A DNA stretch of 64,000 nt from Owenia fusiformis (Eukaryota > Annelida > Polychaeta > Sabellida > Oweniidae), in contig CAIIXF020000004.1 of the NCBI GenBank assembly GCA_903813345.2, positions 19,440,477 through 19,504,476 on the forward strand. Direction: 5' to 3'. Positions 31,001 through 62,308 of the stretch are shown here, in pieces. The position numbers and the translations under genes are program-made. The notes under the pieces were generated by a model, which saw only the letters and a list, made by a program, of their open reading frames with translations, was not told the DNA's origin and searched no databases. The number at the start of each line of letters is the position of its first letter. The first letter of the stretch is position 1.

Positions 31001-31500
31001 NNNNNNNNNNNNNNNNNNNNNNNNNNNNNNNNNNNNNNNNNNNNNNNNNNNNNNNNNNNNNNNNNNNNNNNNNNNNNNNNNNNNNNNNNNNNNNNNNNNN
31101 NNNNNNNNNNNNNNNNNNNNNNNNNNNNNNNNNNNNNNNNNNNNNNNNNNNNNNNNNNNNNNNNNNNNNNNNNNNNNNNNNNNNNNNNNNNNNNNNNNNN
31201 NNNNNNNNNNNNNNNNNNNNNNNNNNNNNNNNNNNNNNNNNNNNNNNNNNNNNNNNNNNNNNNNNNNNNNNNNNNNNNNNNNNNNNNNNNNNNNNNNNNN
31301 NNNNNNNNNNNNNNNNNNNNNNNNNNNNNNNNNNNNNNNNNNNNNNNNNNNNNNNNNNNNNNNNNNNNNNNNNNNNNNNNNNNNNNNNNNNNNNNNNNNN
31401 NNNNNNNNNNNNNNNNNNNNNNNNNNNNNNNNNNNNNNNNNNNNNNNNNNNNNNNNNNNNNNNNNNNNNNNNNNNNNNNNNNNNNNNNNNNNNNNNNNNN
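31001..31500. other. Assembly gap of 500 N
   Basis: Exactly 500 undetermined bases, probably a default scaffold gap size. It joins the hAT copy in the 70-bp satellite to a different tandem array, so adjacency of the two sides rests only on scaffolding. A 191-residue open frame spanning it is spurious. Confidence 0.98.
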
Positions 31501-32509
31501 AAATTTTTCTTCCGAAAATTGAAATTAATGGTATAAAATGATGTTATAGTTCAAGTTGAACAGAGTCGTGATGTCTGGTGTCATCTCGGGATGACACGTC
31601 TACGGACGAGACACATTTAGGATGACACCCTCCTCGGATGAGTGTTACGAAAGAAATTTTTCTTCCGAAAATTGAAATTAATGGTATAAAATGATGTTAT
31701 AGTTCAAGTTGAACAGAGTCGTGATGTCTGGTGTCATCTCGGGATGACACGTCTCCGGACGAGACACATTTAGGATGACACCCTCCTCGGATGAGTGTTA
31801 CGAAAGAAATTTTTCTTCCGAAAATTGAAATTAATGGTATAAAATGATGTTATAGTTCAAGTTGAACAGAGTCGTGATGTCTGGTGTCATCTCGGGATGA
31901 CACGTCTACGGACGAGACACATTTAGGATGACACCCTCCTCGGATGAGTGTTACGAAAGAAATTTTTCTTCCGAAAATTGAAATTAATGGTATAAAATGA
32001 TGTTATAGTTCAAGTTGAACAGAGTCGTGATGTCTGGTGTCATCTCGGGATGACACGTCTCCGGACGAGACACATTTAGGATGACACCCTCCTCGGATGA
32101 GTGTTACGAAAGAAATTTTTCTTCCGAAAATTGAAATTAATGGTATAAAATGATGTTATAGTTCAAGTTGAACAGAGTCGTGATGTCTGGTGTCATCTCG
32201 GGATGACACGTCTACGGACGAGACACATTTAGGATGACACCCTCCTCGGATGAGTGTTACGAAAGAAATTTTTCTTCCGAAAATTGAAATTAATGGTATA
32301 AAATGATGTTATAGTTCAAGTTGAACAGAGTCGTGATGTCTGGTGTCATCTCGGGATGACACGTCTCCGGACGAGACACATTTAGGATGACACCCTCCTC
32401 GGATGAGTGTTACGAAAGAAATTTTTCTTCCGAAAATTGAAATTAATGGTATAAAATGATGTTATAGTTCAAGTTGAACAGAGTCGTGATGTCTGGTGTC
32501 ATCTCGGGA
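31501..32509. repeat. 153-bp tandem array with 306-bp dimeric alternation
   Basis: About 6.6 near-identical units of 153 bp, with starts at 31501, 31654, 31807 and so on. One position alternates strictly between units (CTACGG, then CTCCGG), so the homogenised unit is a 306-bp dimer. Each unit contains the inverted repeat GTGTCAT-CTCGGG-ATGACAC, plus a further GGATGACACC. The array stops inside this hairpin at 32509, where the 66-bp array starts. Its left end is hidden by the gap. Confidence 0.95.
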
Positions 32510-34143
32510 ATCAATACCCCATTGTCTATTACAGGAGTACATGGACTACACAAGTAATACCAATAGTGTAGCATAATCAATACCCCATTGTCTATTACAG
32601 GAGTACATGGACTACACAAGTAGTACCAATATTGTAGCATAATCAATACCCCATTGTCTATTACAGGAGTACATGGACTACACAAGTAATACTAATAGTG
32701 TAGCATAATCAATACCCCATTGTCTATTACAGGAGTACATGGACTACACAAGTAGTACCAATATTGTAGCATAATAAATACCCCATTGTCTATTACAGGA
32801 GTACATGGACTACACAATTAGTACCAATATTGTAGCATAATCAATACCCCATTGTCTATTACAGGAGTACATGGACTACACAAGTAATACCAATAGTGTA
32901 GCATAATCAATACCCCATTGTCTATTACAGGAGTACATGGACTACACAAGTAGTACCAATATTGTAGGATAATCAATACCCCATTGTCTATTACAGGAGT
33001 ACATGGACTACACAAGTAATACCAATAGTGTAGCATAATCAATACCCCATTGTCTATTACAGGAGTACATGGACTACACAAGTAGTACCAATATTGTAGG
33101 ATAATCAATACCCCATTGTCTATTACAGGAGTACATGGACTACACAAGTAATACCAATAGTGTAGCATAATCAATACCCCATTGTCTATTACAGGAGTAC
33201 ATGGACTACACAAGTAATACCAATAGTGTAGCATAATCAATACCCCATTGTCTATTACAGGAGTACATGGACTATACAGGTAATACCAATAGTGTAGCAT
33301 AATCATAAACCCATTGTCTATTACAGGAGTACATGGACTACACAAGTAGTACCAATATTGTAGGATAATCAATACCCCATTGTCTATTACAGGAGTACAT
33401 GGACTACACAAGTAATACCAATAGTGTAGCATAATCAATACCCCATTGTCTATTACAGGAGTCCATGGACTACACAAGTAATACCAATAGTGTAGCATAA
33501 TCAATACCCCATTGTCTATTACAGGAGTACATGGGCTATACAGGTAATACCAATAGTGTAGCATAATCAATACCCCATTGTCTATTACAGGAGTACATGG
33601 ACTACACAAGTAATACCAATAGTGTAGCATAATCAATACCCCATTGTCTATTACAGGAGTACATGGACTACACAAGTAATACCAATAGTGTAGCATAATC
33701 AATACCCCATTGTCTATTACAGGAGTACATGGACTACACAAGTAGTACCAATATTGTAGCATAATCAATACCCCATTGTCTATTACAGGAATACATGGAC
33801 TACACAAGTAGTACCAATATTGTAGCATAATCAATACCCCATTGTCTATTACAGGAGTACATGGACTACACAAGTAATACCAATAGTGTAGCATAATCAA
33901 TACCCCATTGTCTATTACAGGAGTACATGGACTACACAAGTAGTACCAATATTGTAGGATAATCAATACCCCATTGTCTATTACAGGAGTACATGGACTA
34001 CACAAGTTATACCAATAGTGTAGCATAATCAATACCCCATTGTCTATTACAGGAGTACATGGACTACACAAGTAATACCAATAGTGTAGCATAATCAATA
34101 CCCATTGTCTATTACAGGAGTACATGGACTATACAGGTAATAC
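32510..34143 (+). repeat. 66-bp tandem array carrying 3' splice site copies, left block
   Basis: About 25 units of 66 bp. Each holds a pyrimidine-rich tract ending TCTATTACAG, then GAGTACATGGACTACACAA, then GTAATACC or GTAGTACC. The tract and the following 19 bases match the acceptor and first bases of the real exon at 36,411. The array is thus an expansion of an intron/exon boundary. Two unit types differ at AATAGTG/AATATTG and interleave. The long minus-strand open frames exist only because 66 is a multiple of three. Confidence 0.93.
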
Positions 34144-34643
34144 CAGGGCTGTCAACTTGGGACCACCTAATATGAGTGACTTCAAAATGTTGGACACCTA
34201 AGTCCAAATCTGAACACTTTTGTCCAAATTTTGAACACCTTTGGCCAACTTTTAAACACCTTTGGCCAAAGTTTGAGCACATTTGCCAAACTTTGAACAC
34301 CTCAAATTTTTCGCGCACGCTACGCTCGCGATATCGTCAACGGGGGGGGGGGGGGGGGGGGGGGGTAGGTACGAAAAATTTCCAATGAACATGCGTGACA
34401 CATACGGGATTCGCGTGACAAATCCGAACAAATTGCGTTCGGTTTTTTCCGGCGTTCGTATTTTTACCGTATCGTAAACATATTTCGAAAAAATTTCTAC
34501 AGAAATATTTTTGCTTGACAATTACCAGGTAAAATGCGTATTTTGCGTGACATTATCTGTCACGCAAAAAAAACTGGCGTGACTTCAAATTCTTCAGCAA
34601 ATGCGTGACAAATACGCAAATTGCGGGACAGTTGACAGGCCTG
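34144..34643. mobile_element. Non-autonomous DNA element, CAGG-CTGTCAA termini, copy 1
   Basis: A 500-bp insertion in the 66-bp array. The ends are CAGGGCTGTCAAC and, reversed, CAGGCCTGTCAAC, flanked by the 6-bp duplication TAATAC (34138-34143 and 34644-34649). Left inner sequence has about four copies of a 25-bp motif built on GAACACCTTTGGCCAA. A homopolymer of about 24 G lies at 34342-34365. No transposase is seen. A second copy is at 61,737-62,160, also with a 6-bp duplication. The termini resemble hAT ends, but the duplication length is unusual for that superfamily, so the class is left open. Confidence 0.85.
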
Positions 34644-34649
34644 TAATAC

Positions 34650-36410
34650 CAATAGTGTAGCATAATCAATACCCCATTGTCTATTACAGGAGTACATGGA
34701 CTACACAAGTAGTACCAATATTGTAGGATAATCAATACCCCATTGTCTATTACAGGAGTACATGGACTACACAAGTAATACCAATAGTGTAGCATAATCA
34801 ATACCCCATTGTCTATTACAGGAGTACATGGACTACACAAGTAATACCAATAGTGTAGCATAATCAATACCCCATTGTCTATTACAGGAGTACATGGACT
34901 ACACAAGTAGTACCAATATTGTAGGATAATCAATACCCCATTGTCTATTACAGGAGTACATGGACTACACAAGTAATACCAATAGTGTAGCATAATCAAT
35001 ACCCCATTGTCTATTACAGGAGTACATGGACTACACAAGTAATACCAATAGTGTAGCATAATCAATACCCATTGTCTATTACAGGAGTACATGGACTATA
35101 CAGGTAATACCAATAGTGTAGCATAATCAATACCCCATTGTCTATTACAGGAGTACATGGACTACACAAGTAGTACCAATATTGTAGGATAATCAATACC
35201 CCATTGTCTATTACAGGAGTACATGGACTACACAAGTAATACCAATAGTGTAGCATAATCAATACCCCATTGTCTATTACAGGAGTACATGGACTACACA
35301 AGTAGTACCAATATTGTAGCATAATCAATACCCCATTGTCTATTACAGGAGTACATGGACTATACAGGTAATACCAATAGTGTAGCATAATCAATACCCC
35401 ATTGTCTATTACAGGAGTACATGGACTACATAAGTAATACCAATAGTGTAGCATAATCAATACCCCATTGTCTATTACAGGAGTACATGGACTATACAAG
35501 TAATACCAATAGTGTAGCATAATCAATACCCCATTGTCTATTACAGGAGTACATGGACTACACAAGTAGTACCAATATTGTAGCATAATCAATACCCCAT
35601 TGTCTATTACAGGAATACATGGACTACACAAGTAGTACCAATATTGTAGCATAATCAATACCCCATTGTCTATTACAGGAGTACATGGACTACACAAGTA
35701 ATACCAATAGTGTAGCATAATCAATACCCCATTGTCTATTACAGGAGTACATGGACTACACAAGTAGTACCAATATTGTAGCATAATCAATACCCCATTG
35801 TCTATTACAGGAATACATGGACTACACAAGTAGTACCAATATTGTAGCATAATCAATACCCCATTGTCTATTACAGGAGTACATGGACTACACAAGTAAT
35901 ACCAATAGTGTAGCATAATCAATACCCCATTGTCTATTACAGGAGTACATGGACTACACAAGTACATGTAGTACCAATATTGTAGGATAATCAATACCCC
36001 ATTGTCTATTACAGGAGTACATGGACTACACAAGTAATACCAATAGTGTAGCATAATCAATACCCCATTGTCTATTACAGGAGTACATGGACTACACAAG
36101 TAATACCAATAGTGTAGCATAATCAATACCCCATTGTCTATTACAGGAGTACATGGACTACACAAGTAATACCAATAGTGTAGCATAATCAATACCCCAT
36201 TATCTATTACAGGAGTACATGGACTATACAAGTAATACCAATAGTGTAGCATAATCAATACCCCATTGTCTATTACAGGAGTACATGGACTACACAAGTA
36301 GTACGAATAGTGTAGCATAATTAATACCCCATTGTCTATTACAGGAGTACATGGACTACACAAATAGTACCAATAGTGTAGCATAATTAATACCCCATTG
36401 TCTATTACAG
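34650..36410 (+). repeat. 66-bp tandem array carrying 3' splice site copies, right block
   Basis: About 26 more units of the same 66-bp repeat, continuing up to the functional acceptor. One unit near 35,960 has a short ACATGTAGT insertion. Units with ACTATACAG followed by GTAATACC are closest to the genuine exon start, and the last unit passes straight into the exon. It lies in the intron upstream of the 36,411 exon. Confidence 0.93.
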
Positions 36411-36516
36411 GAGTACATGGACTATACAGGTTATGCCAAGTTGTACCCAAGAGCAGCAGCCTACATTACCAGACCTTGTAACCTCTCTTTGTCATCAAGG
36501 AAAAATAATATAGATG
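36411..36516 (+). CDS. Internal exon of an unidentified plus-strand gene (exon a)
   Basis: A 106-nt exon with acceptor TCTATTACAG/GAG and donor GATG/GTAAGT. It is open in one frame and encodes a peptide beginning EYMDYTGYAKLYPRAAAYIT and ending SSRKNNID. It starts in phase 0 and carries one base to the next exon, which completes a glycine codon. I do not recognise the protein family. No signal peptide or membrane segment is visible in this stretch. The 66-bp array directly upstream repeats this exon's first 19 bases and its acceptor. Upstream exons lie outside the window or in the gap. Confidence 0.75.
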
Positions 36517-38669
36517 GTAAGTGACTTTTACTTCTCATCAAAACATGATATTTCTAATTCTGTATGTATATTTAGATAGGTACATTTTAAAAGTAAATCA
36601 AGGCCAGATCTCCTTGATGGGGTTCAAGTATAAAGGATTGGTCTAGATGACCACTGTACTACTACTACTGCCTGAGCATATTTGATTTATAATGAACTTG
36701 CAATGAAAAATGAGTTACCTACCACACATTACAAGTGACAATTTCCATAGCACTTGTTTTGTTTACATTGTTGTATTCGTCTTTATTTCAGGACTACTTA
36801 GTTTGGCGATTTTTGGGATGCAGGATGTCAGCTGTTGTTTCAGTGTTGAAAATGTTTTCAATGCAGAAAATTATATAAGATATTGAAAGTATTGAGTTAA
36901 AAATCCATTATTAGCCCACATGGGTGAGCTATTGTTATCACCCACTTGTCTGTCTGTCCATTCGTCCATCTGTCTGTCTGTCAACACATTGGTAGCAAAT
37001 TCAAAATCCTCCACGACAATTGGAACAATTTTACTTTTAAAATGTGTATATAAAGGTATAAAATGTGTATATATAAGGTTGTCAATTGTTCCATAAGTGG
37101 TGTCTTCTCAAAAGCTCACCTTGTTTTTATGGCGTCCATTTTTATTGCGATAACATCAGATTTTTTTCGGGTTTTAACTCAACAGGTTTTTGACCAATTT
37201 ACTTCAAATTGTACAGGTACCTTAATTTATACATTATCAATAATGCTTACAAGTTTTGTCAAAACAAGTCGCAAACATTCAAAATGGCAGCCACTTTTAT
37301 TGTGGAAAATTAAGTTTCAGCTCATTTTTGGTCATAACTCCACAAGTGTTCCCTCAATTTGCCTTGCCAAAACATGTTTTGTTTAGTGGGATCTACTACA
37401 CCATGGAGTTGCTGTTTTCTAGTTTCTATCAAAAAATTATGATCCAAAATGGGGAGGCAGGGGTTTCATTTACAGGCAGCAGGCACCGTCACTTTCTAGT
37501 GTAGGAATCAAGGTTTCCATTAATTTTGCCCGTTGTTTTTATGTCACCATCAAGAAGTGGTGACATATTGTTATGGTCACCATTTTTTGGGCGGCGGCCG
37601 ATGGTTGGCAATCGGTGGGTGGTGGGTGGCCGTCAGCGGGCAGCAATTGTCGTCTGTAACAAATTCTTATAATTTCCAATAACTTAACAAATACTGTTTA
37701 GACTGACTTCATTTTTTTCTAAATCATCTTCAAGTTTTCAGAAGTTCAAATCTGACTTTACATGTAAAATTTGACCTTCAATGACCTTTTCAAGGTCAAA
37801 AAAGGTAAAAAAGGTCAAAAAGGTATTTTGTCAACTTGCTTCAAATTGACCAAATATTTTTTTCAAAATCATCTACAAGTTATTAGAAGTTCTAATCTGA
37901 CTTTAAGATCTGATGTTTAATGACATTCTCAAGGTCAAAAAAGATTTGACCTTCAATGACCTTTTCAACTCTCAAATTGACCAATTTTTTTTCAAAACCA
38001 TCTACAAGTTCTCAGAAGTTCAAATCTGATTTTAGATTAGTGATTTCAGCTTCAATGACCTTCTCGGGGTCAAAAACTTGCTTCAAATTGACCATTTTTT
38101 CTTTAAAAATCATCTACAGAGTTCTCAGCCTTGTGCAACTCTGTGCAAGATTTGCCACTGGATTTGTTTGTGAAAAGTGTACTTGTCTTGACCGTGTATA
38201 ATAATGAGCTAGCGCTGCAGGGCCGTCGTTGATTGATCAGATTTACCAACATAAACATTGAGTCAGTTAAGCATGTGGCTTTCTCATTGGTACAAGGCAG
38301 TCATAATACAGAGTTCTCAGAAATTCAAATCTGACTTACGATTGAACTAATAATATTGTGAGCAACTAGGTTGTGACATTTTGTCATGTTAATGCCTTGT
38401 TATTTATTTAGCCTGTTGTGAGAAAATCTAGTGAAACCCCTGGGAGGGGTTATTTATTAAAATCTATTTTGTTTTTTAGGATTTGCTACATTGTGCCTTA
38501 GGTCAAAATCATTTCACTCATCTTTAGTTGGAATTATTATCTGGGCAATCTCAGAACTATAGCTTGTGTCCTTTTTGATGCATTATAAGTCTGCATAATT
38601 GTAGCCAAAAGCCTCATTTAATTTTTATTTAATGCTTTCTTTTTTATTAATAGTATGTTTATGTCTCAG
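36517..38669. other. Intron with dispersed and degenerate repeats
   Basis: Intron between exons a and b. Near 36,907-37,010 it has a GTCTGTCTGTC-rich stretch typical of dispersed repeats. A segment at 37,370-37,425 recurs near 39,185-39,235 (GTGGGATCTAC / ATGGGATTTGC, then CCATGGAGTTGCT). At 37,700-38,110 about four degenerate units of about 110-130 bp recur, with GACCTTCAATGACC and TCTCAGAAGTTCAAATCTGA motifs. No coding exon was recognised. Confidence 0.6.
38129..38306. mobile_element. 178-bp insert with 14-bp target duplication
   Basis: The 14-bp sequence TACAGAGTTCTCAG occurs at 38115-38128 and again at 38307-38320. It splits one of the degenerate units whose other copies read continuously. 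A 13-15 bp direct duplication is typical of target-primed reverse transcription, so this is probably a SINE-like or other retroposed insert. The 178-bp body has no poly(A) and no recognised RNA-gene boxes, so its source is unknown. Confidence 0.55.
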
Positions 38670-38734
38670 GGTACTTTCCAAGGATGCAAGCACTCAACCA
38701 AGTAGTAACACTGGCCCATCAGTTGAACTCTGAT
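38670..38734 (+). CDS. Internal exon of an unidentified plus-strand gene (exon b)
   Basis: A 65-nt exon with acceptor ATGTCTCAG/GG and donor TGAT/GTATGT. Two bases complete the codon left by exon a. The exon then reads YFPRMQALNQVV followed by TLAHQLNSD, and ends in phase 0. The match of phase to both neighbours is good support. Family not recognised. Confidence 0.72.
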
Positions 38735-38839
38735 GTATGTAATCTCTACAATCACAAATATGTAGCGTACCAGATAGCTTTACTTTATGTGAGTATAACT
38801 TTACTAAATGTGAGTTTAAACTTACTCTAGTCTTGCATC

Positions 38840-39433: not shown

Positions 39434-39582
39434 CAATCTATGAATGCTTTGGGAAGTAGTATACCATCCCTTCTGGAGTTCAAATCAGATATAGAACGTA
39501 ATTTTAAGTTCATCAAAGAAGAACTCAACTCTTTAATAGATGAAGATCTCACACCACAATTATCACAAGATAGGTCTCAATG
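39434..39582 (+). CDS. Internal exon of an unidentified plus-strand gene (exon c)
   Basis: A 149-nt exon with acceptor TATATTTTCAG/CAA and donor AATG/GTAGGT. It starts in phase 0, in agreement with exon b, and gives QSMNALGSSIPSLLEFKSDI followed by ERNFKFIKEELNSLIDEDLT. The second stretch looks like a charged amphipathic helix. It carries two bases forward. The proposed terminal exon at 42,486 needs one, so at least one exon between them is probably missed. Confidence 0.72.
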
Positions 39583-40420: not shown

Positions 40421-41270
40421 TTACAATTTTTGCTGTATGTGGATGGCTTCTTTAACTTTTCTATAGAAATCCTTACTCTCCTTATCAACTATACTATACT
40501 CATTCCAATTAATTGATCCTATGACCTGTGACGTATGAATGTTCAGTTTCTTTTCCTAATCTTAATGCTGTCTGATGTTCTTTTATCCTAACACCTATTG
40601 GTCTCTTAGTTTCACCTATGTACGAGCTATCACAGTCCTGACAATTAATTTTGTAAATAACTCCAGAGATTTCTGACTTAGGGCTTGGATCCTTTGGTGA
40701 GACTAACTCCTGTTTGATCGTTCTAGCAGCTTTAAAATAAGTTTTCACTCCTACATTATTAAACACCCTCTCTAACCATTGTGACGTACCTTGTATATAT
40801 GGTAGAGTTACACTTAATGGTGGAGTCTCAGACTCACTGCCATTTGGGTCAACTACTCTAGGTTTTTCCTTGTTAGCTTGTTCTATACTCCAAAGTGGAT
40901 AACCACACCTACTTAATGTTTGTTTGATATGACCTTGTTCATTCTCTAAATCTGTGCTATCTTGAATAACTTCCTTCGCTCTGCGAGTTAAAGTCTTAAC
41001 TACTCCTAGTTTGGTCCTATATAAATGATGAGAATTGAAGTTTAGGTACAAGTCTGTATGTGTTGGTTTTCTATACACCCTACACCCTTACGATCTATCT
41101 TCCTTTATATATGTAAGAACATCCAGAAAGGCTAACTCTTTGTTTACTGCTACTTCTCTAGTGAACTTAATATCTTGATGAAACCTGTTAATGAAGTCTG
41201 TGAAACTATCTACTGACTCTGACTTTATAACACACCATGTGTCATCCACATAGAGTTTCCAGATCCACCT
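40421..41270 (-). pseudogene. Penelope-like retroelement, 5'-truncated RT plus GIY-YIG
   Basis: On the minus strand, reading starts just before the reverse-transcriptase motif YVDD (about 41,245). It continues through the thumb region with VYRKPTHTDLYLNF and SHH. It ends in a GIY-YIG-type endonuclease domain with IYKINCQDCDSSYIGETKR and IKEH. This order (RT, then C-terminal GIY-YIG) defines Penelope-like elements. Lesions are an in-frame TAA at 41088-41090 and a frameshift near 40,510-40,520, after which coding resumes to a stop at 40421-40423. The upstream RT palm and fingers are missing. The copy sits inside an intron of the plus-strand gene in antisense orientation and cannot be autonomous. 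Confidence 0.88.
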
Positions 41271-42375: not shown

Positions 42376-42485
42376 GTCACATTCTTGTAATGTACAACCA
42401 TCCCATGTAGTCACACAATATGATGGTTTGGATAATACATTGAATATGAACATTACTCTACTTCCAGGGTTGTAATACTTACCAG

Positions 42486-42583
42486 TGGCAGTCTCAGCAA
42501 TAACTGCATTTCCTAACGATCTCACAAGAGAAATGGACCAACTTATAAAAACTATGGTTGCCAACCCAGAAATGACAAACTGA
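42486..42583 (+). CDS. Probable terminal exon of the unidentified plus-strand gene
   Basis: After acceptor ATACTTACCAG the sequence reads AVSAITAFPNDLTREMDQLI, then KTMVANPEMTN and a TGA at 42581-42583. The peptide looks like real coding sequence. A canonical AATAAA follows 34 bases after the stop. The exon needs one base carried from the preceding exon, while exon c supplies two, so an intermediate exon is probably missing. The opposite strand is open over the same bases but looks like a shadow. Confidence 0.5.
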
Positions 42584-47097: not shown

Positions 47098-47850
47098 CAC
47101 CCTATACAGACAGAGCCTGTGGGAAATATTGGGTGCGGCGCAAATGAGCGGAGGGTGCGGAGCTAACGGTCATTTTTGAATTTAAAATTGGGATATTTCT
47201 GAAACTAAGCCGTTTTGGGACTTCAAATATACCAAGATATGTGTATTTGACACCAAATATCAATAAAATTGTGAAAATAGTAGTGCAATTCATTTTATAG
47301 CGACGCAGTATGCCTTAAACATTTCCCAGACCTATATATTTTGAGACTATCCTTTTAAAAATGCGTCCCCAGCATTCATAAAAAATGGTGTTCAAGATAC
47401 ACTACCCATGCAAATTATTTTTGCATCTTGGAAGCCAGGCAGTATCTGTGTGATTTTATAAAAATTCGGAAATGTTCTTCAGATATGAGCCCCCTCTAAA
47501 TATTGGGTGCGGAGGTACGTTTATGGAAAATAATTTGTATAGATAGTGTACCTTGAACACCATTTTTTATGAATGCTGGGGACTCAGTATTAAAAGGATA
47601 ATTTCAAAATATACTAGGTCTGGAAAGGTTTAAGGCACACTGCGTCGCTATAGAATGAATTGCGCTACTATTTTCACAATTGTATTGATATTTGGTGTCA
47701 AATACACATATCTTGGTATATTTGAAGTCCCAAAACGGCTTAGTTTCAGAAATATCCCAAATTTAAATTCAAAAATGACCGTTAGCTCCGCACCCTCCGC
47801 TCATTTGCTCCGCACCCAATATTTCCCACAGGCTCTGTCTGCATAGGGTG
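47098..47850. mobile_element. Foldback DNA element, about 305-bp arms, 5-bp target duplication
   Basis: A 753-bp element starting CACCCTATACAGACAGAG, with a matching inverted right end. It is flanked by GAATA (47093-47097 and 47851-47855). Arms span about 47,098-47,402 and 47,546-47,850 at high identity, with a 143-bp spacer. The open frames in the two arms are mirror images of the same sequence. Removing it with one GAATA restores alignment, base for base, with the related repeat at 42,241-42,280. A 5-bp duplication and a CAC start suggest a Transib-like origin, but no transposase is present, so this is tentative. Confidence 0.85.
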
Positions 47851-49073: not shown

Positions 49074-49209
49074 CTGAAAAAGACCAATCATTAAAGCAAC
49101 TTTAGGTATTGAACACAAAGACATTGATAAAAGCATTTCAACCTATCAGATTTATATATATTGACCAGTCATCCTTCAAGAGTTTACATTAGTAGAGACT
49201 ATATCTCAC

Positions 49210-49680
49210 CATCTACAGGCTCAGCTAATCCAAGCAGTTTCTCACCATCTACATCCTTAGTCGAACCAAGCAGCTTATCAATATCTACAGCTTTAGTTGA
49301 ACCAATCAGTTTCTCACCATCTACAGCCTTAGTTGAACCAAGTTGTTTCTCAACATCTACAACATCAGTTGGACCAAGCAGTTCCTCATCATCTACAGTC
49401 TCAGTTGAACCAAGCAGTTTCTCAACATTTACATTCTTAGTTGGACCAAGCAGTTTCTCACCATTTTCAGCCTCAGTTGACCTAAGCAGTTTCCCACCAT
49501 CTACATCTTTAGTTGAACCAAGCATTTTCGCAATATCTGCAGTCTTAGTTGAACTAAGCAGTTTCTCACTATCTACATCTTTCGTTGAACCAAGTAGTTT
49601 CTCAACATTTACAGTCTCAGTTGAACTAAGCAGTTTCTCACTATCTACATATTTAGTTGAACCAAGTTGTTTCTCACTAT
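49210..49680 (-). repeat. 36-bp coding tandem repeat
   Basis: Thirteen 36-bp units within the penultimate exon, listed here because the tandem structure is itself a feature. Units alternate loosely between types ending VDG/VDS and types ending VNV/ADI, suggesting growth by unequal exchange. Coordinates run high to low because the units read on the minus strand. Confidence 0.85.
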
Positions 49681-49855
49681 CTTCAACCTCAGTTGAACTA
49701 TGGTTTTCACATGGTGGCAAGTCGTTAATGTACCTCTTGAAGGCATTTACTGCACTCATCCTCCATATTTTATTCTTGATTTTTCCAAAGTTCTTCTCAA
49801 TATTCTCATTCTGAGGATTGAGCTCTATCTCATTTGGGTTTTCCACAATGGTTGC
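49210..49855 (-). CDS. Plakin-repeat gene, penultimate exon with 12-residue repeats
   Basis: A 646-nt exon with acceptor TTTGTTCAAG/GCA and donor GATG/GTGAGA. The first third (ATIVENPNEIELNPQ..., then FGKIKNKIWRMSAVNAFKRY) follows the last plakin-type segment. The rest is 13 tandem 12-residue units of the type EKLLGSTKDVDG (36 bp each, 49,210 to about 49,680). These are acidic, Lys- and Ser/Thr-bearing and probably extended. The upstream codons before position 49,855 are intron read-through. The donor lies in the last repeat. Other units ending in VDG have the same GATGGTGAGA motif at 49,246 and 49,318, in phase. The opposite-strand open frame is a shadow. Confidence 0.85.
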
Positions 49856-50153
49856 CTTGAACAAATAGGATAAAACAAATAAAACCATAGAGAACAATAT
49901 TGCACCCCTATCATTATCAATGCCCCCTATATATTTTGAAATGAAGTCACTCATGCTCCAGTATATCCATATTCTAGTAATAATACTTCAAAATTCGAAA
50001 AATACAATAGAGAGGTTAATCTACACGTCCAAATCCAAACCGTTAACATGAACGCGTAAGTTCACGCTCAAGTATATCAGTGGACGTGAAGCAAAGAATT
50101 ATGAGAGCTGCTCACTTCTGTACGCGATCAAATATTTTACCTTACGCCTTTAC
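49856..50153. other. Intron between penultimate exon and plakin exon 5
   Basis: An unremarkable 298-bp intron with consensus ends on the minus strand (GTAAAG at 50,153, CAAG at 49,856). No inserted element was seen. Confidence 0.6.
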
Positions 50154-50273
50154 CTTAATGAATCCTCTGTCTATTGCATCTGCAACATACATCCTCTCAT
50201 CAGTAGCTTTGTTCACATAATCTGCAGTATTCTTATCTAGTAGACCCATGCGCACTGCTTCTAAGAAGGTTAC
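50154..50273 (-). CDS. Plakin-repeat gene, exon 5 in window
   Basis: A 120-nt exon, exactly 40 codons, phase 0 at both ends (acceptor TTTAACAG/GTA, donor TTAAG/GTAAAG). It reads VTFLEAVRMGLLDKNTADYV, then NKATDERMYVADAIDRGFIK. The pattern EAVRMGLLD...ADAIDRGFIK is the plectin-repeat consensus (EAv--GLiD), twice in tandem. Plectin-type repeats form compact domains that bind intermediate filaments or junction partners in plakins. The preceding exon ends DPLQKKT, so the junction DPLQKKT/VTFLEAV reconstitutes a standard repeat. Confidence 0.88.
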
Positions 50274-50559
50274 CTGTTAAATGAAGAAATTTAGGTATAT
50301 TTAATCGCAAAAGAATTTCGTAGACATAAAAAAGTAAAATTTGGAGTCAAAGGTCAAGGTCATCAAAGTAAGTCACAGACGGTGTTATCTAAGTTAATTC
50401 GAGACTGCAAATCAATATTTTTGGTTGAAAGTCAGGATATATATTCCTCTAAAAGGTTCTACATCTATTCGACTTTGAATACATTTGAAAACTCTGACGA
50501 TTGCTTGCAATCTTGATGTCAAGTTATTGGTACAAATTCCCATTTTCATAAATGCTTAA

Positions 50560-51145
50560 AGGAATATTCCTTGCCAAACCATCTCTCTCCTCATATGGTA
50601 GCTATATGCTTGCCATGTTTAGCAAAACACGCAAAAATGTTTTGATAAAGTTGATCACTTAGAAATGTGATGCTCAATTCCAGTAAGCTGCCATCTTTTG
50701 AAATTTCACACAGGAAGTGATGTCATCGACTCTCAACTTTGCATATAGCATTAGGTGATGAGCTATAACGAATTACAAAACCAGCTAAATATTCTTTTTC
50801 AACTTTGTATCTTATTTTATCCTTCTGAAAATCTCTTCTTTTATTCTAAGTTGACAAGCCCTGAAAATATTTTTGCACAGAAAGTAATGATCACTTGTCT
50901 AGAAGTGATTTTGTGCTACTTTCCTATACTGTTATGGGCAAGGTTATAGAAGTTGAGAGTTGATGACATCACTTCCTGCAAGAAATCTTAAAAGATGGCA
51001 GCTCACTAGAAATAAGCACTAGATTTTCAAATGATCAATATTGACCATATTAAAACATTTTCCCATGTTTTGCTAAATATGGAAACTATATATATGATTA
51101 TAGCTACCATATCAAGAGAGAAAGGGTCTGGCAAGGAATATTCCT
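50560..51145. mobile_element. TTAA-flanked foldback MITE 1
   Basis: A 586-bp element with ends AGGAATATTCCTTGCC, inverted at the other side, flanked by TTAA (50556-50559 and 51146-51149). Arms of about 190 bp share motifs such as TGATGACATCACTTCCTG. The 200-bp centre is AT rich and carries only spurious open frames. A TTAA duplication is typical of piggyBac and Kolobok superfamilies; no transposase is seen. It lies in a plakin-gene intron. Confidence 0.8.
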
Positions 51146-51308
51146 TTAAATCTCTGGTAGAGAATGTCAACTGGTCAGCAATTTTGAAAGTCGTGGTAAA
51201 ATTCTTCAAAAAGAAGAGACACCACTTCGCCTACGTCAACTGATCAAAACGTGTTGTATCCTGCACTGAGTCTAGTTATAAACAACGAAGCTCTCTTTTA
51301 CCCCCCTA

Positions 51309-51872
51309 TCACACCAAGCTAGTTCTTACCCGTTCTTGCCAGTCCTACCAAAATGTCGTGAAACGGGCTCAATCTGGCTGCGGTCGGAATATATGTCTAA
51401 AATAATTAGCTACTTCGTTCATAAACAGTCTTCAATACGTCCATCTCATTCGCAGTTCGTTCAGGTCGCACCACGTCGGTGTGCAACGTAGTATAAACCG
51501 TCCCTTAGTATAGAAGGTCAGCATGACCTGATAACAGAACGGTATGGTCGCCATCGAATTTTGAATCGATTCAAAATTCTAAATTACATACCCCGTCCGG
51601 GAAAGTCCATGAAGTTCGTAAACAGACCGTAGAACGTTGTAGCTACGTTCATTCAGTTCGTACACAGTTTAAAACCGATTCGGCAACGTTTTGACGATCA
51701 CCAGAAAATTTTGAGCATGCTCTAAGTGCTGGAGGACCTACTCGTTCTAGTAGTTTCATGAAGTTTGTAAACAGATCCCAAACGGTTCTTAGTGGGTTCT
51801 TAGTACGTCAAATCCGTTCGTGCAAAGTTTAAGCCCGTTTTCGAGAACGTAGTGAGAACTAGTTTGGTGTGA
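51309..51872. mobile_element. TIR element flanked by TA
   Basis: Inverted ends of about 22 bp (TCACACCAAGCTAGTTCT at the left and a near-identical right end) are flanked by TA (51307-51308 and 51873-51874). The interior has degenerate repeats of GTTCGTACACAGTTTAA-like sequence and no coding potential. A TA duplication would fit a Tc1/mariner-type MITE, but two bases alone are weak evidence. Confidence 0.55.
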
Positions 51873-51976
51873 TAGTAGAGTTTAGAAGTGAAGTCGAACG
51901 AATGCAAATGGTAAACCGTTTGCGGCAGGACACCACAAAAAGCGGTGATGCAATAGTACAAGAAGTTGACGAAAAC

Positions 51977-52476
51977 GGCTTTGTATAAAAAAAACTCCTA
52001 CCTCATACCCACCTACCCACCTACGTGGAACATGATACATTCATTGAAGGGTTCAATTTTAAAGATTATTAAATCTCAAAATAGCTCAAATTATTAACAT
52101 TTCTACAATTCCGGTTTTATTTTATGACTAGACAGATGACGGGTACATAAATAAAGGCATATGGATGCATTTTAATGTGTAATGACCCGAGGGAGCCCCA
52201 GTGGAATAAATAAGTAACGACCGCGAGCATAGGTTCAACAAGCCAGATAAAGAAATTGAAAGAAAGTGTGCTAAAGTCGATGCCCCGAGTGGGAATCGAA
52301 CCCAGCTGGGATGTAGTAGCAACTTGCTTTCAATGGTCGTTATAAATGCATCTATAATTCATCATAAACTAAGATAAATAAACTAAGATCTTTAAAATTG
52401 AACCCTTCAAAGACTGTATCATGTCCCACGTACGTGGGTAGGTGGGTATGAGGGAGGAGGTTTTTTATACAAAGCC
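51977..52476. mobile_element. Foldback element with 9-bp target duplication (MULE-like)
   Basis: A 500-bp element with ends GGCTTTGTATAAAAA and its inverse, flanked by the 9-bp duplication GACGAAAAC (51968-51976 and 52477-52485). Arms of about 100 bp (51,977-52,075 and 52,380-52,476) include CCCACCTACCCACCTACGT. A 9-bp duplication is typical of Mutator-like elements. The centre holds a tRNA-like B box. No transposase is present. It lies in a plakin-gene intron. Confidence 0.82.
52265..52330 (-). other. tRNA-like B box, probable SINE or tRNA fragment
   Basis: The minus strand reads GGTTCGATTCC (52292-52302), a perfect pol III B box, followed by CACTCGGGGCA like a tRNA T-arm and acceptor end. 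No matching A box or 5' acceptor half was found upstream, so this is a fragment inside the MULE-like element and not a tRNA gene. Confidence 0.4.
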
Positions 52477-52982
52477 GACGAAAACTAATGCCAACTATTA
52501 ACATTCGAAAACAAACAGTATTGCAGAACAAAACGTCGCCTGATCTTAAATAATAGTACCAAGATCTAGCTGGAGAACACAAGGCCAGAGGTTGGCACAT
52601 TGTCCAATACCCCATAGAAGTAGGCTGTAGAGGTTTTCCAGCTTCTCTTCGCTTTTCCCTATCTCAAATAGGATTGCCACCAATGCAGCTTAAGTCAGCA
52701 ATCAAAGCAGTTAGTATGGTAGCAAAGTCCAGCTCAATGTGGACTTGGCCCAAAAAGAGACAGATGGTGTCCTTCAGCGAGTGATGGTTAAGGTCAGCCA
52801 TTACTGCCCCACTCAGTGAAACCCTCACAGGTTAAAGGGCGAAATACTATTGATACTGAGATACCTGCTGATGACGCAGTGAAGGACTCCCACTTGTTTT
52901 CCTTAGACACTAACCATTTTATGTATCCCTGTTAAAATTGTAGCGATGCATCGAAGATGTTTTTAAGAAAAATCATTCTTAC

Positions 52983-53123
52983 GGTTTTCTTTTGTAAGGG
53001 GTCCACGATGTGATGTATCGCATAACATGTCGTTTTCACCTGTCTGTTAGCTGAGTCCAAGTCATCGTATTCCACAACTAACAAACCTAAACTGATAGCC
53101 TTGTCAAATGTGTATTGCTCCTT
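52983..53123 (-). CDS. Plakin-repeat gene, exon 4 in window
   Basis: A 141-nt exon, exactly 47 codons, phase 0 at both ends (acceptor CTTTTTCAG/AAG, donor AAACC/GTAAGA). It reads KEQYTFDKAISLGLLVVEYD, then VKTTCYAIHHIVDPLQKKT. It holds the second half of one plectin-type repeat (TFDKAISLGLL) and the start of the next (HHIVDPLQKKT). The spacer DDLDSANRQ is longer than in vertebrate repeats. An internal GTGAAA could be read as a donor, but splicing there would break the DPLQKKT-VTFLEAV repeat. Confidence 0.85.
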
Positions 53124-54017
53124 CTGAAAAAGAATCAATGTCAAATGCTAAACTAGAGCAGTCAAACTACAGGTCACGTAGACCATTGTTGCCTGAATTA
53201 TAGCAGAAACATTGACTTTTGCACGTCGGTGATCATATCTTAGAAGCGTATCAGTTCCAAAAATATACTAGAAGATCTAACATATTTTGCCAAGCACTGC
53301 GCCTATTCATTTGAGAATTCAGTTGTAAATTTTCTCTTGAAAAAATAAATCTTCCTTTTTTTCGGAGTTTTTTTCTCTCACCTGAAAATTGCCCCCCCCC
53401 CCCTTGTTGGTTCCCAGATCCGCCCCTGCACCGGGCGTGTATATTATAGCCAGGGGTATGTCCTAGGATGTTATTTAAAAAGAATATTATCTATTCAGTA
53501 TTTTAGGTCCTGGGCTGTGATTTGTCTCCAATCCCCCCATTTTTCGATATTCCATTTTGACAAATTTTGGCTCATATTACCTATTTCTGGATGTAGGATT
53601 TACCCACGTTTTTTTTCTAAAAAGGTAGAAACTATATTCATCTATCACATTTAGTACCCTTTTCTTGCTAAAAAAACATTATATGTTGTTTTTGACTGAA
53701 AAAGTTAAAAAAATACGCGACAAAAGTTGACCTACTTTTGACCCCATTTGACCTACATTTTGAGATTTTAATACACCTCCCTCCAGAGTTTTGAATGACT
53801 TACAAGATGGAACCAAATTTTTTCTGTACCTCTTCAACTTTTGAAACGCCAAGGGGGTCATTTGTTTGGGGGTCGTATTTGTTTTCAAAACAACTTTTAG
53901 CGTTCTCTATAAGTACTGTTCATGGTGTAATCATATTTTGCTACCAGAATCCTACCTTTTACACCGGTACTACTTGAACTTTGGTGGAAAATATATTCTT
54001 CCCAGTTGTTGGCTTAC
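53124..54017. other. Intron between plakin exons 3 and 4
   Basis: AT-rich intron. A poly(C) run lies near 53,393-53,404. On the minus strand a CAGGGGCGGATCTGGG end (about 53,413-53,428) resembles the TIR of common hAT-type MITEs, but no partner end was found. The open frames at 53,679-53,977 are not supported. Confidence 0.45.
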
Positions 54018-54118
54018 CTTAAGTGGGTGAACATAGAAGCCGCTTATCTCATCTATCAGTCCACATTGAACAGCTTCATCCACATCAAGAGTGTTGCCAG
54101 TGAGTGCATCCACTGCTC
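54018..54118 (-). CDS. Plakin-repeat gene, exon 3 in window
   Basis: A 101-nt exon with acceptor CTGTTTTAAG/GA and donor CTTAAG/GTAAGC. Its first two bases complete a glycine codon from the previous exon; 33 codons follow: AVDALTGNTLDVDEAVQCGL, then IDEISGFYVHPLK. This is the textbook plectin repeat pattern (DxxTG...VdEAvxxGLID...Y). It is too short to stand out as a single open frame and was found by splice and motif reading. Confidence 0.88.
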
Positions 54119-54653
54119 CTTAAAACAGAACTCTTTCTTAGTTACAATCTTCATGAATTTATGTTTTTCGAAGTAAAGAGAAAAGTTATTATTTAAAGTG
54201 TGCGGCAAAGTTTAAAACTGCGCAGGTGCGGCGCTCTCGCTGACCTATATAAAGAGATTCCAAGGTACAGGCTTCAGAGGTAAGCCAGGAAGGTGAACAA
54301 TCTTCATCCCATGTTGATTTCCCGAATAATCGTAACCAGGCAAGTTTCACCATTGAAATTGAAAATTACTATTAGATATACTTTGTACAGTTGTTATTTA
54401 TGAAGCTAGTTAAGTGCATCAATCAAATGGCTCATTTTGAACATATAAAAAAGTATTTGTGTTTTGTTTCCCAAGGAATTGGAATCCCATGTAGTACACA
54501 CATAAATAGTGTACATTATGTAGTACTTGAATCATCTCCAACATCATCTCCAATCAAATTGCAGGATGTGATCACGTGAACAATCATGAGCACGTGCTCT
54601 CTCAGTGCTGCGCATGCGCAAAGTTAAATTTGAAATCGTGCGAATGGTGTTAA

Positions 54654-61312: not shown

Positions 61313-62308
61313 ACTTCCAACAACGCGAACATCAGTTCTGACCTCGCGAATTGCGTTCCTTGCACTCGAACCACACACCCGATCGAAAAACGCATAACTA
61401 AAATTCCAACGAAGTGTTTTTATTTGGAAATCGTAATAAATACTTTCCGTGCATGTTAATGAATATCCACAAATTGAAGATAACAGCATCTTCAAGCTCC
61501 AGGAAACACAAAACATTTGGACTACTTTGCGATCCCACGCATTGACATTTCAGTGAAGGGGCTAGGCAATAAAAGCTTTTCATTGGCTGCGGAGAGTTTA
61601 TGACTCTATTGAAATATATGTGTACATGTATAAGTGTCAATGTAAACTGCAACCAGACTCCTGTTGTTGCTTGCAATTGGAATCCCAAATACCCGGAGGC
61701 ACTATGTACAAATTGTTCGCGAGCACGGATCTATTTCAGGCCTGTCAACTTGGGAACACCTAACATGAGTGACTTGGAAATGTTGAACACCTCCCCTCAA
61801 AATGTGGACACCTTGGTCCAAATCTGAACACCTTAATCCAAATTTTGAAAACCTTGGTTTAAATTTTATTACATCTTGCCAAATTTTGAACACCTCAAAT
61901 TTTTCGCGCTCGCTACGCTCGCGTTTCAAACATCCATCAAGGGGGGGGGAGGGGGTGGTACGAAATATTTCGAACGGAATGCGTGACATATCCGTAATTC
62001 GCGTGAAAAGTCCGAACGAAATGCGTACGTTTTTTTCCCGTCGTTCGTATTTTTGCTGTGTAGACGATCTTTTCTGTCACGCAAAAATAACTGGCGTGAC
62101 TTCAAATTCTTCAGCAAATGCGTGACAAATACGCAAATTGCGGGACAGTTGACAGGCCTGCTATTTTCGCGAGTGGAGAAATATGTTCGGGAGTGTGGAA
62201 ATGGTGGTGCGCGACTAAAGATGTCACCTTTCGACGTGAGAATCGTGGTTCGAGCGCAAGGAATGTAGTTCGCGAGCTCAGAACTAATGTTCGCGTTGTT
62301 GGAAGTCT
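61313..62308. repeat. Inverted repeat pair surrounding MITE copy 2
   Basis: Arms 61,313-61,380 and 62,243-62,308, about 68 bp and highly similar in inverse orientation (ACTTCCAACAACGCGAACAT is shared). The spacer contains the 424-bp element at 61,737. Probably the arms of an older foldback; its outer ends were not resolved. The similar peptides read from the arms are a consequence of the duplication. Confidence 0.55.
61737..62160. mobile_element. Non-autonomous DNA element, CAGG-CTGTCAA termini, copy 2
   Basis: A 424-bp relative of the element at 34,144. Ends are CAGGCCTGTCAACTTGGGA and, reversed, CAGGCCTGTCAACTGTCCCG, flanked by CTATTT (61731-61736 and 62161-62166). Here the 6-bp duplication cannot be extended, which settles the termini as CAGG. 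It shares the TTTTGAACACCT motifs, the TTTTTCGCGC(T/A)CGCTACGCTCGCG block and a shorter G run. No transposase. Confidence 0.85.

Follow-up and report, generated by a model that had tools for sequence, protein, structure and literature searches.

The window analysed here is a 64,000-nucleotide stretch of the genome of the annelid Owenia fusiformis. It carries a large minisatellite in which a 3' splice site is repeated in tandem up to a predicted coding exon. The features at this locus are as follows, in order of position.

31,001-31,500, strand not given: exactly 500 N in a row, a probable scaffold gap (sequence reading)

31,501-32,509, strand not given: 153-bp satellite, 6.6 copies, adjoining the array and cut within a unit (repeat scan)

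32,510-36,410, plus strand: 66-bp minisatellite of 51 decoy units, in each of which the acceptor TCTATTACAG precedes an exon-like head of 19 nt; not found elsewhere (sequence scan)

34,145-34,642, strand not given: candidate hAT-like MITE of 498 bp inside the array (inverted ends and target duplication)

36,401-36,410, plus strand: last acceptor, belonging to the exon (sequence scan)

36,411-36,516, plus strand: predicted coding exon of 106 nt, entered by the last unit, donor GTAAGT (shares an open frame with the two exons that follow, with matching phases)

38,670-38,788, plus strand: second predicted exon, donor GTGAGT (open phase-consistent chain)

39,434-39,582, plus strand: third predicted exon, donor GTAGGT (open phase-consistent chain)

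42,468-42,516, plus strand: possible last coding segment, after the acceptor TTCCAG and ending in TAA (by eye)

The acceptor TCTATTACAG has 52 unchanged copies between 32,525 and 36,401, which comprise 51 decoys and the acceptor of the exon at 36,411-36,516. A first-pass annotation of this DNA had reported about 51 decoy acceptors before one exon, and its count and coordinates are right. The query joined the acceptor to the exon head (29 bases, with up to five mismatches allowed), and the ten acceptor bases proved exact in 52 of 52 matches. In a scan of the window, each of these 52 places continues into a head resembling GAGTACATGGACTA. A 21-mer from the head, GAGTACATGGACTAYACARGT, scanned with up to three mismatches, gives 52 matches in the window compared with a mean of 0 in 100 shuffles. 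The 52-copy array is thus confirmed as real and not a product of chance.

With the 498-bp inserted element removed, the step from one unit to the next is 66 bp in 48 of 51 cases, 65 bp in two and 72 bp in one. The 51 units fall into 19 types, the commonest of which has 17 copies, and variation involves 17 of the 66 unit positions plus one 6-bp insertion. Each decoy consists of a 19-nt micro-exon followed by a would-be intron of 47 nt, wherein the AG is present in all 51 units and a GT directly follows the head in 49. In a comparison of 49 positions spanning the splice point, the true site differs from 45 of the 51 decoys at two to four positions, from two at one, and from four at six to ten. 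Of these last four, one is at an array edge, two are shifted by one base and one is a variant unit.

The inserted element, which was missed by the first-pass annotation, is flanked by a perfect 8-bp target duplication, GTAATACC, at 34,137-34,144 and 34,643-34,650. Its inverted ends are similar (AGGGCTGTCAACT and AGGCCTGTCAACT). On the basis of the duplication length and the inverted ends, the insert is probably a hAT-like MITE. A relative lies at 61,738-62,159, with 357 of 412 aligned columns identical and a decayed duplication.

On its left, the array adjoins the 153-bp satellite and not unique intron sequence, and the junction cuts both repeats within a unit. The 500-N run 1 kb to the left of the array was likewise overlooked in the first pass. 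A second run of 500 N lies further left (stretch L018), suggesting that both runs are scaffold gaps. The satellite also occurs on the unplaced contigs C322 and C492 in many more copies, mostly at 97-100% identity, and gives weaker matches of 92-96% identity on C493 and C7. C322 looks like satellite throughout, judging from the parts read and the matches between them. C492 ends in the satellite in the same orientation as at the array. Thus, the sequence contig that holds the array seems to begin in satellite, and the DNA left of the gap may not be its true neighbour. That DNA (positions 1-30,620) consists of a 70-bp satellite over about 30 kb; it has higher-order periods of 140 and 210, its blocks recur thousands of bases apart, and the 500-N gaps lie nearby. 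The start of C492 (L025, C492:1-10,000) resembles a Gypsy-type retroelement on the minus strand, as judged by its open frames, and is followed by 16-bp and 147-bp tandem repeats and then by the 153-bp satellite. C492 is possibly where the satellite originated.

This setting raises the question of whether the array, or its junction with the satellite, was misassembled. The gap only 1 kb away, the presence of the satellite on unplaced contigs and a junction that falls mid-unit in both repeats are all compatible with such an artefact. However, 19 types with private variants among 51 units, and a MITE with a clean target duplication inside one unit, are features that a simple copying error would not make. 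We consider misassembly very improbable.

The first-pass annotation proposed that the intron-exon boundary was amplified in place, and searches of the genome bear this out. A query comprising the last head, the exon and its flank has 51 matches, all at the array locus. A 29-mer across the acceptor has 46 exact matches, all on the plus strand and all at the same locus, and a reversed control has none. The searches covered the readable sequence of the 498.3-Mb genome, whose gaps could conceal other copies; in the readable sequence of this one assembly, no second copy of the locus was found. The array is therefore a local expansion and not a dispersed satellite, and its restriction to this locus indicates growth in place. 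At one position, a T found in the last two decoy units and in no other unit also occurs in the exon's own upstream flank.

The order of unit types suggests that growth proceeded partly in blocks of units. There are 20 repeated pairs of neighbouring types, a number that none of 2,000 shuffles reached (mean 11.2), and eight repeated triples, a number reached in 1 of 2,000 shuffles (mean 2.2). Quadruple repeats do not attain significance in this comparison (134 of 2,000 shuffles), and no quintuple is repeated. The array could thus have spread by unequal exchange or slippage, in part through the copying of several units together.

We considered whether the acceptors are maintained by selection. 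None of the variable columns falls among the ten acceptor positions (P 0.039), and at most one falls among the last 17 positions (P 0.025). Both tests are post hoc, and homogenisation of the units explains the conservation equally well, so we did not adopt this explanation. Minus-strand open frames of 436, 180 and 467 amino acids that run through the array were also set aside as trivial, because a 66-bp unit without a stop in a given frame stays open however often it is repeated.

The identity between unit and exon is certain over about 19-21 nt of the exon. An extension to about 35 nt is only suggestive, given that a score as good is reached at 111 of 8,967 random positions and at 105 of 1,582 positions starting with GT, and that free local alignments are not significant (892 and 655 of 5,000 shuffles as good). 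The short extent of secure identity is compatible with events having run in the opposite direction, with an intronic minisatellite arising first and the acceptor and first exon bases being recruited from its last unit. Gain of introns and exons from comparable arrays has been proposed for lancelet globins in the accessible passages of one report (PMC3087553). The units themselves say little on this point: the exon-like state TATACAG is a minority form, found in 5 of 51, which either direction allows. We regard this reversed order of events as unlikely. Whichever came first, the DNA immediately before the exon contains 51 additional tandem copies of a 66-bp segment that comprises the acceptor and at least the first 19-21 nt of the exon.

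The exon itself is probably real, and the statement in the first pass that the last unit runs into a genuine exon stands to that extent. It forms an open, phase-consistent chain with the predicted exons at 38,670 and 39,434. All three have GT-AG ends, and the spliced product has one frame open for 124 codons and many stops in the other two. We scanned for trios of open exons within 3.4 kb that agree in phase and have strong donors. Two chains emerge at the locus, differing in the acceptor of the second exon. None appears in 28 half-overlapping control windows, taken on both strands from the right part of the window, and 1 of 100 Markov shuffles has one or more. The thresholds were set after the exons had been seen, and the minus-strand exons of the neighbouring gene yield no chain in the same scan, so the zero controls are partly due to its strictness. 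A second exon at 36,792-36,886 had at first been read by eye, but the exon at 38,670 extends the chain further and replaced it.

Neither Pfam nor PDB contains a recognised relative of the predicted protein. The best Pfam match is no better than E 0.12. The three-exon version has no match in PDB, and an earlier version had none better than E 0.39. When the genome is searched with the conceptual protein, its own exons are recovered along with seven matches at E 0.015 or weaker, and a scan for a dysbindin-like motif found nothing.

Several other features lie to the right of the array. A minus-strand open frame at 40,509-41,087 has a weak match to GIY-YIG (E 0.0051, below the cut-off) and may be a Penelope-like element, which would lie in the final intron of the gene of the array. 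The region 47,105-47,850 has two inverted matching stretches around the repeated phrase gctccgcaccctccgctcattt, seen by eye, and looks like a long hairpin element. At 49,199-49,987 there is a 36-bp minisatellite of 13.8 copies within a minus-strand open frame of 262 amino acids, with repeats like LLGSTKDVDGEK, and this is probably a coding repeat. Open stretches with plectin repeats (Pfam PF00681) occupy the minus strand at 50,145-54,119. The repeat at 53,973-54,119 passes the cut-off (E 0.00027), and that at 50,145-50,276 falls just below it (E 0.0007). This region probably represents a spectraplakin-like gene that faces the gene of the array.

A homeodomain query of the genome gave 48 matches, of which 11 lie within 0.5 Mb of contig C1. 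One of the ten loci cut out reads ...KWKKDNNIEKLTGPP, which we take to be the Lox5 signature of lophotrochozoans. The Hox genes point to a spiralian, and a lancelet origin, brought into consideration by the mirages described below, was set aside on account of the Lox5-like gene. No COX1 was found in the assembly. The accessible part of the genome report gives O. fusiformis a genome of 505.8 Mb on 12 chromosomes, with 11 Hox genes and the cluster on chromosome 1 (PMC9977687), which the compact Hox cluster seen here resembles.

The array is most likely intronic and normally ignored, judging from the features of the sequence; the upstream exon was not found, and an assembly gap lies between. With an in-frame ATG at 36,417, two codons in, and no exon found further upstream, the 106-nt exon could instead be the first coding exon. 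The array would then lie in a 5' UTR, a 5' UTR intron or promoter DNA, and its acceptors may matter little for splicing. The satellite and gap on the left fit this arrangement. No exon was recognised by eye on C492. Yet there has been little sequence in which to see an upstream exon: of the 40 kb left of the window, the nearest 10 kb reads N, about 22 kb of the remaining 30 kb (three readable stretches of 10 kb) is 70-bp satellite or gap, and only about 8 kb (the end of L018 and the first 7 kb of L017) is anything else. In addition, the open frame starts directly after the last acceptor, and some 26 bases before that acceptor the array unit has an in-frame stop (by eye), as expected of the end of an intron. 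A first coding exon at 36,411 therefore strikes us as an improbable interpretation.

The first-pass annotation suggested that the GT after each head could serve as a donor. This holds for the presence of GT and for a few strong sites, but not for the majority. The sequence CAAGTAATACC is found in 23 of 52 heads and CAAGTAGTACC in 16, and these 39 heads pair with the 5' end of U1 at only -3.0 kcal/mol, a value reached by 28.8% of the 1,586 GT sites in the right part of the window. Five heads carry CAGGTAATACC, which reads CAG|GTAATA and pairs at -8.1 kcal/mol (1.0% of the GT sites). The exon's own donor, GTAAGT, pairs at -9.9 kcal/mol (0.3%).

Read straight on from any of the 51 decoy acceptors, all three frames meet a stop within 28 codons. 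When micro-exons with the consensus head are spliced through their GT, one or two of them shift the frame, as the first pass had noted of 19-nt exons, and run into stops, whereas three together keep the frame open. With five strong donors and triples that preserve the frame, some decoys may be used.

One interpretation takes this further and holds that splicing enters the decoys to an appreciable extent. The upstream exon would be joined to any of the 51 acceptors, stop-bearing transcripts would be degraded, the length of the array would tune the output of the gene, and in-frame triples of micro-exons would appear now and then. The intact state of all 52 acceptors, which include ten positions free of variable columns, is compatible with this proposal, as are the strong donors in five units and the open frame of three micro-exons. 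However, most decoy donors are weak, the lancelet precedents described below are reported, in the passages accessible, as normally spliced, and homogenisation accounts for acceptor conservation just as well, which makes appreciable decoy use doubtful. Highly unlikely, in our judgement, is a still more elaborate version in which the array is a device for splice-site competition. Its length would set the rate of commitment to decoys, so that repeat number serves as a rheostat for the gene, and 57-nt triples of 19-nt micro-exons, which restore the frame, would sometimes be included to yield protein variants.

We instead favour a model, to which we give a probability of roughly 0.6, in which the array is a mirage-type minisatellite and the spliceosome normally passes it to use the last acceptor. 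Since the acceptor is the same in all 52 copies and its surroundings are nearly so, the acceptor can scarcely be what determines the choice. Efficient splicing sets lower limits on the sizes of exons and introns, and a 19-nt exon and a 47-nt intron likely fall below them. Exon definition would be the simplest basis for the distinction, because only the last acceptor faces a full-sized exon of 106 nt with a strong GTAAGT donor. Each decoy would offer a micro-exon, mostly with a weak donor, and a would-be intron that are probably too short for exon or intron definition. Transcripts that did use a decoy would for the most part be degraded by nonsense-mediated decay, given the stops that follow every decoy acceptor.

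Lancelet "mirages" are minisatellites located at splice boundaries that reportedly leave splicing intact (PMC3087553, PMC3902484). In the accessible passages of these reports, RT-PCR suggested that splicing was undisturbed (PMC3087553), somatic instability is cited for the Adh3 mirage, whose units are 10-72 bp (PMC3087553), and TnC and PGBD5 are also named as mirage genes (PMC3902484). As far as those passages go, the Owenia array is similar in its tandem units across an intron-exon boundary (here 52 copies of acceptor and head), in a last unit that enters the authentic exon (here predicted from the open chain), and in units that keep the AG and GT (here 51 and 49 of 51, with mostly weak donors). 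Its 66-bp unit also falls within the Adh3 range. Mirages are further characterised by homogenisation of units inside the cluster, which omits those at the boundary, and by haplotypes of different length. Thus, the first-pass annotation overstated the matter in calling the behaviour of the spliceosome an open question, since lancelet mirages have the same arrangement and are, in those passages, reported without disturbance of splicing. The arrays also differ in several respects. The two haplotypes of BflGb6 have six and three copies according to the accessible text, compared with 51 extra copies here, and the Owenia array has a MITE inside it, a satellite on its far side and a spiralian host.

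In human segmental duplications, internal tandem repeats located at exon-intron boundaries can generate new introns, according to the accessible part of one study (PMC2812944). These are also boundary minisatellites, so the general idea is not confined to lancelets. However, as described there, they have units averaging about 30 bp in four copies, with introns altered or created as judged from transcripts. Intron gain by duplication of an exonic AGGT is another relevant precedent. The duplicated segment in both cases has AG and GT, and the unit here reads as an exon piece, GT...AG and an exon piece. The exon reads CAGGTTATG, and its CAGGT (AG|GT) is kept in only five of the 51 decoy units. In contrast to such intron gain, an existing acceptor seems to have been duplicated here, and the sequence has no sign of new intron use. 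In an earthworm, minisatellites have been reported inside a first intron, and the passages accessible say nothing of whether they cover a splice site (PMC12783039).

A literature search found no array called a mirage outside lancelets, a weak negative given that subscription papers were mostly beyond its reach. The Owenia array therefore appears to be a large member of a known but rare kind, apparently outside lancelets and in another branch of animals. With 52 identical acceptors in nearly identical surroundings before one exon, it provides a natural experiment in 3' splice-site choice, one in which the sequence of the site gives the splicing machinery no guidance. It also suggests that mirage minisatellites, described in lancelets, arise elsewhere and can grow much larger, presumably without killing the gene. 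Large mirages outside lancelets would bear on how introns and exons are gained.
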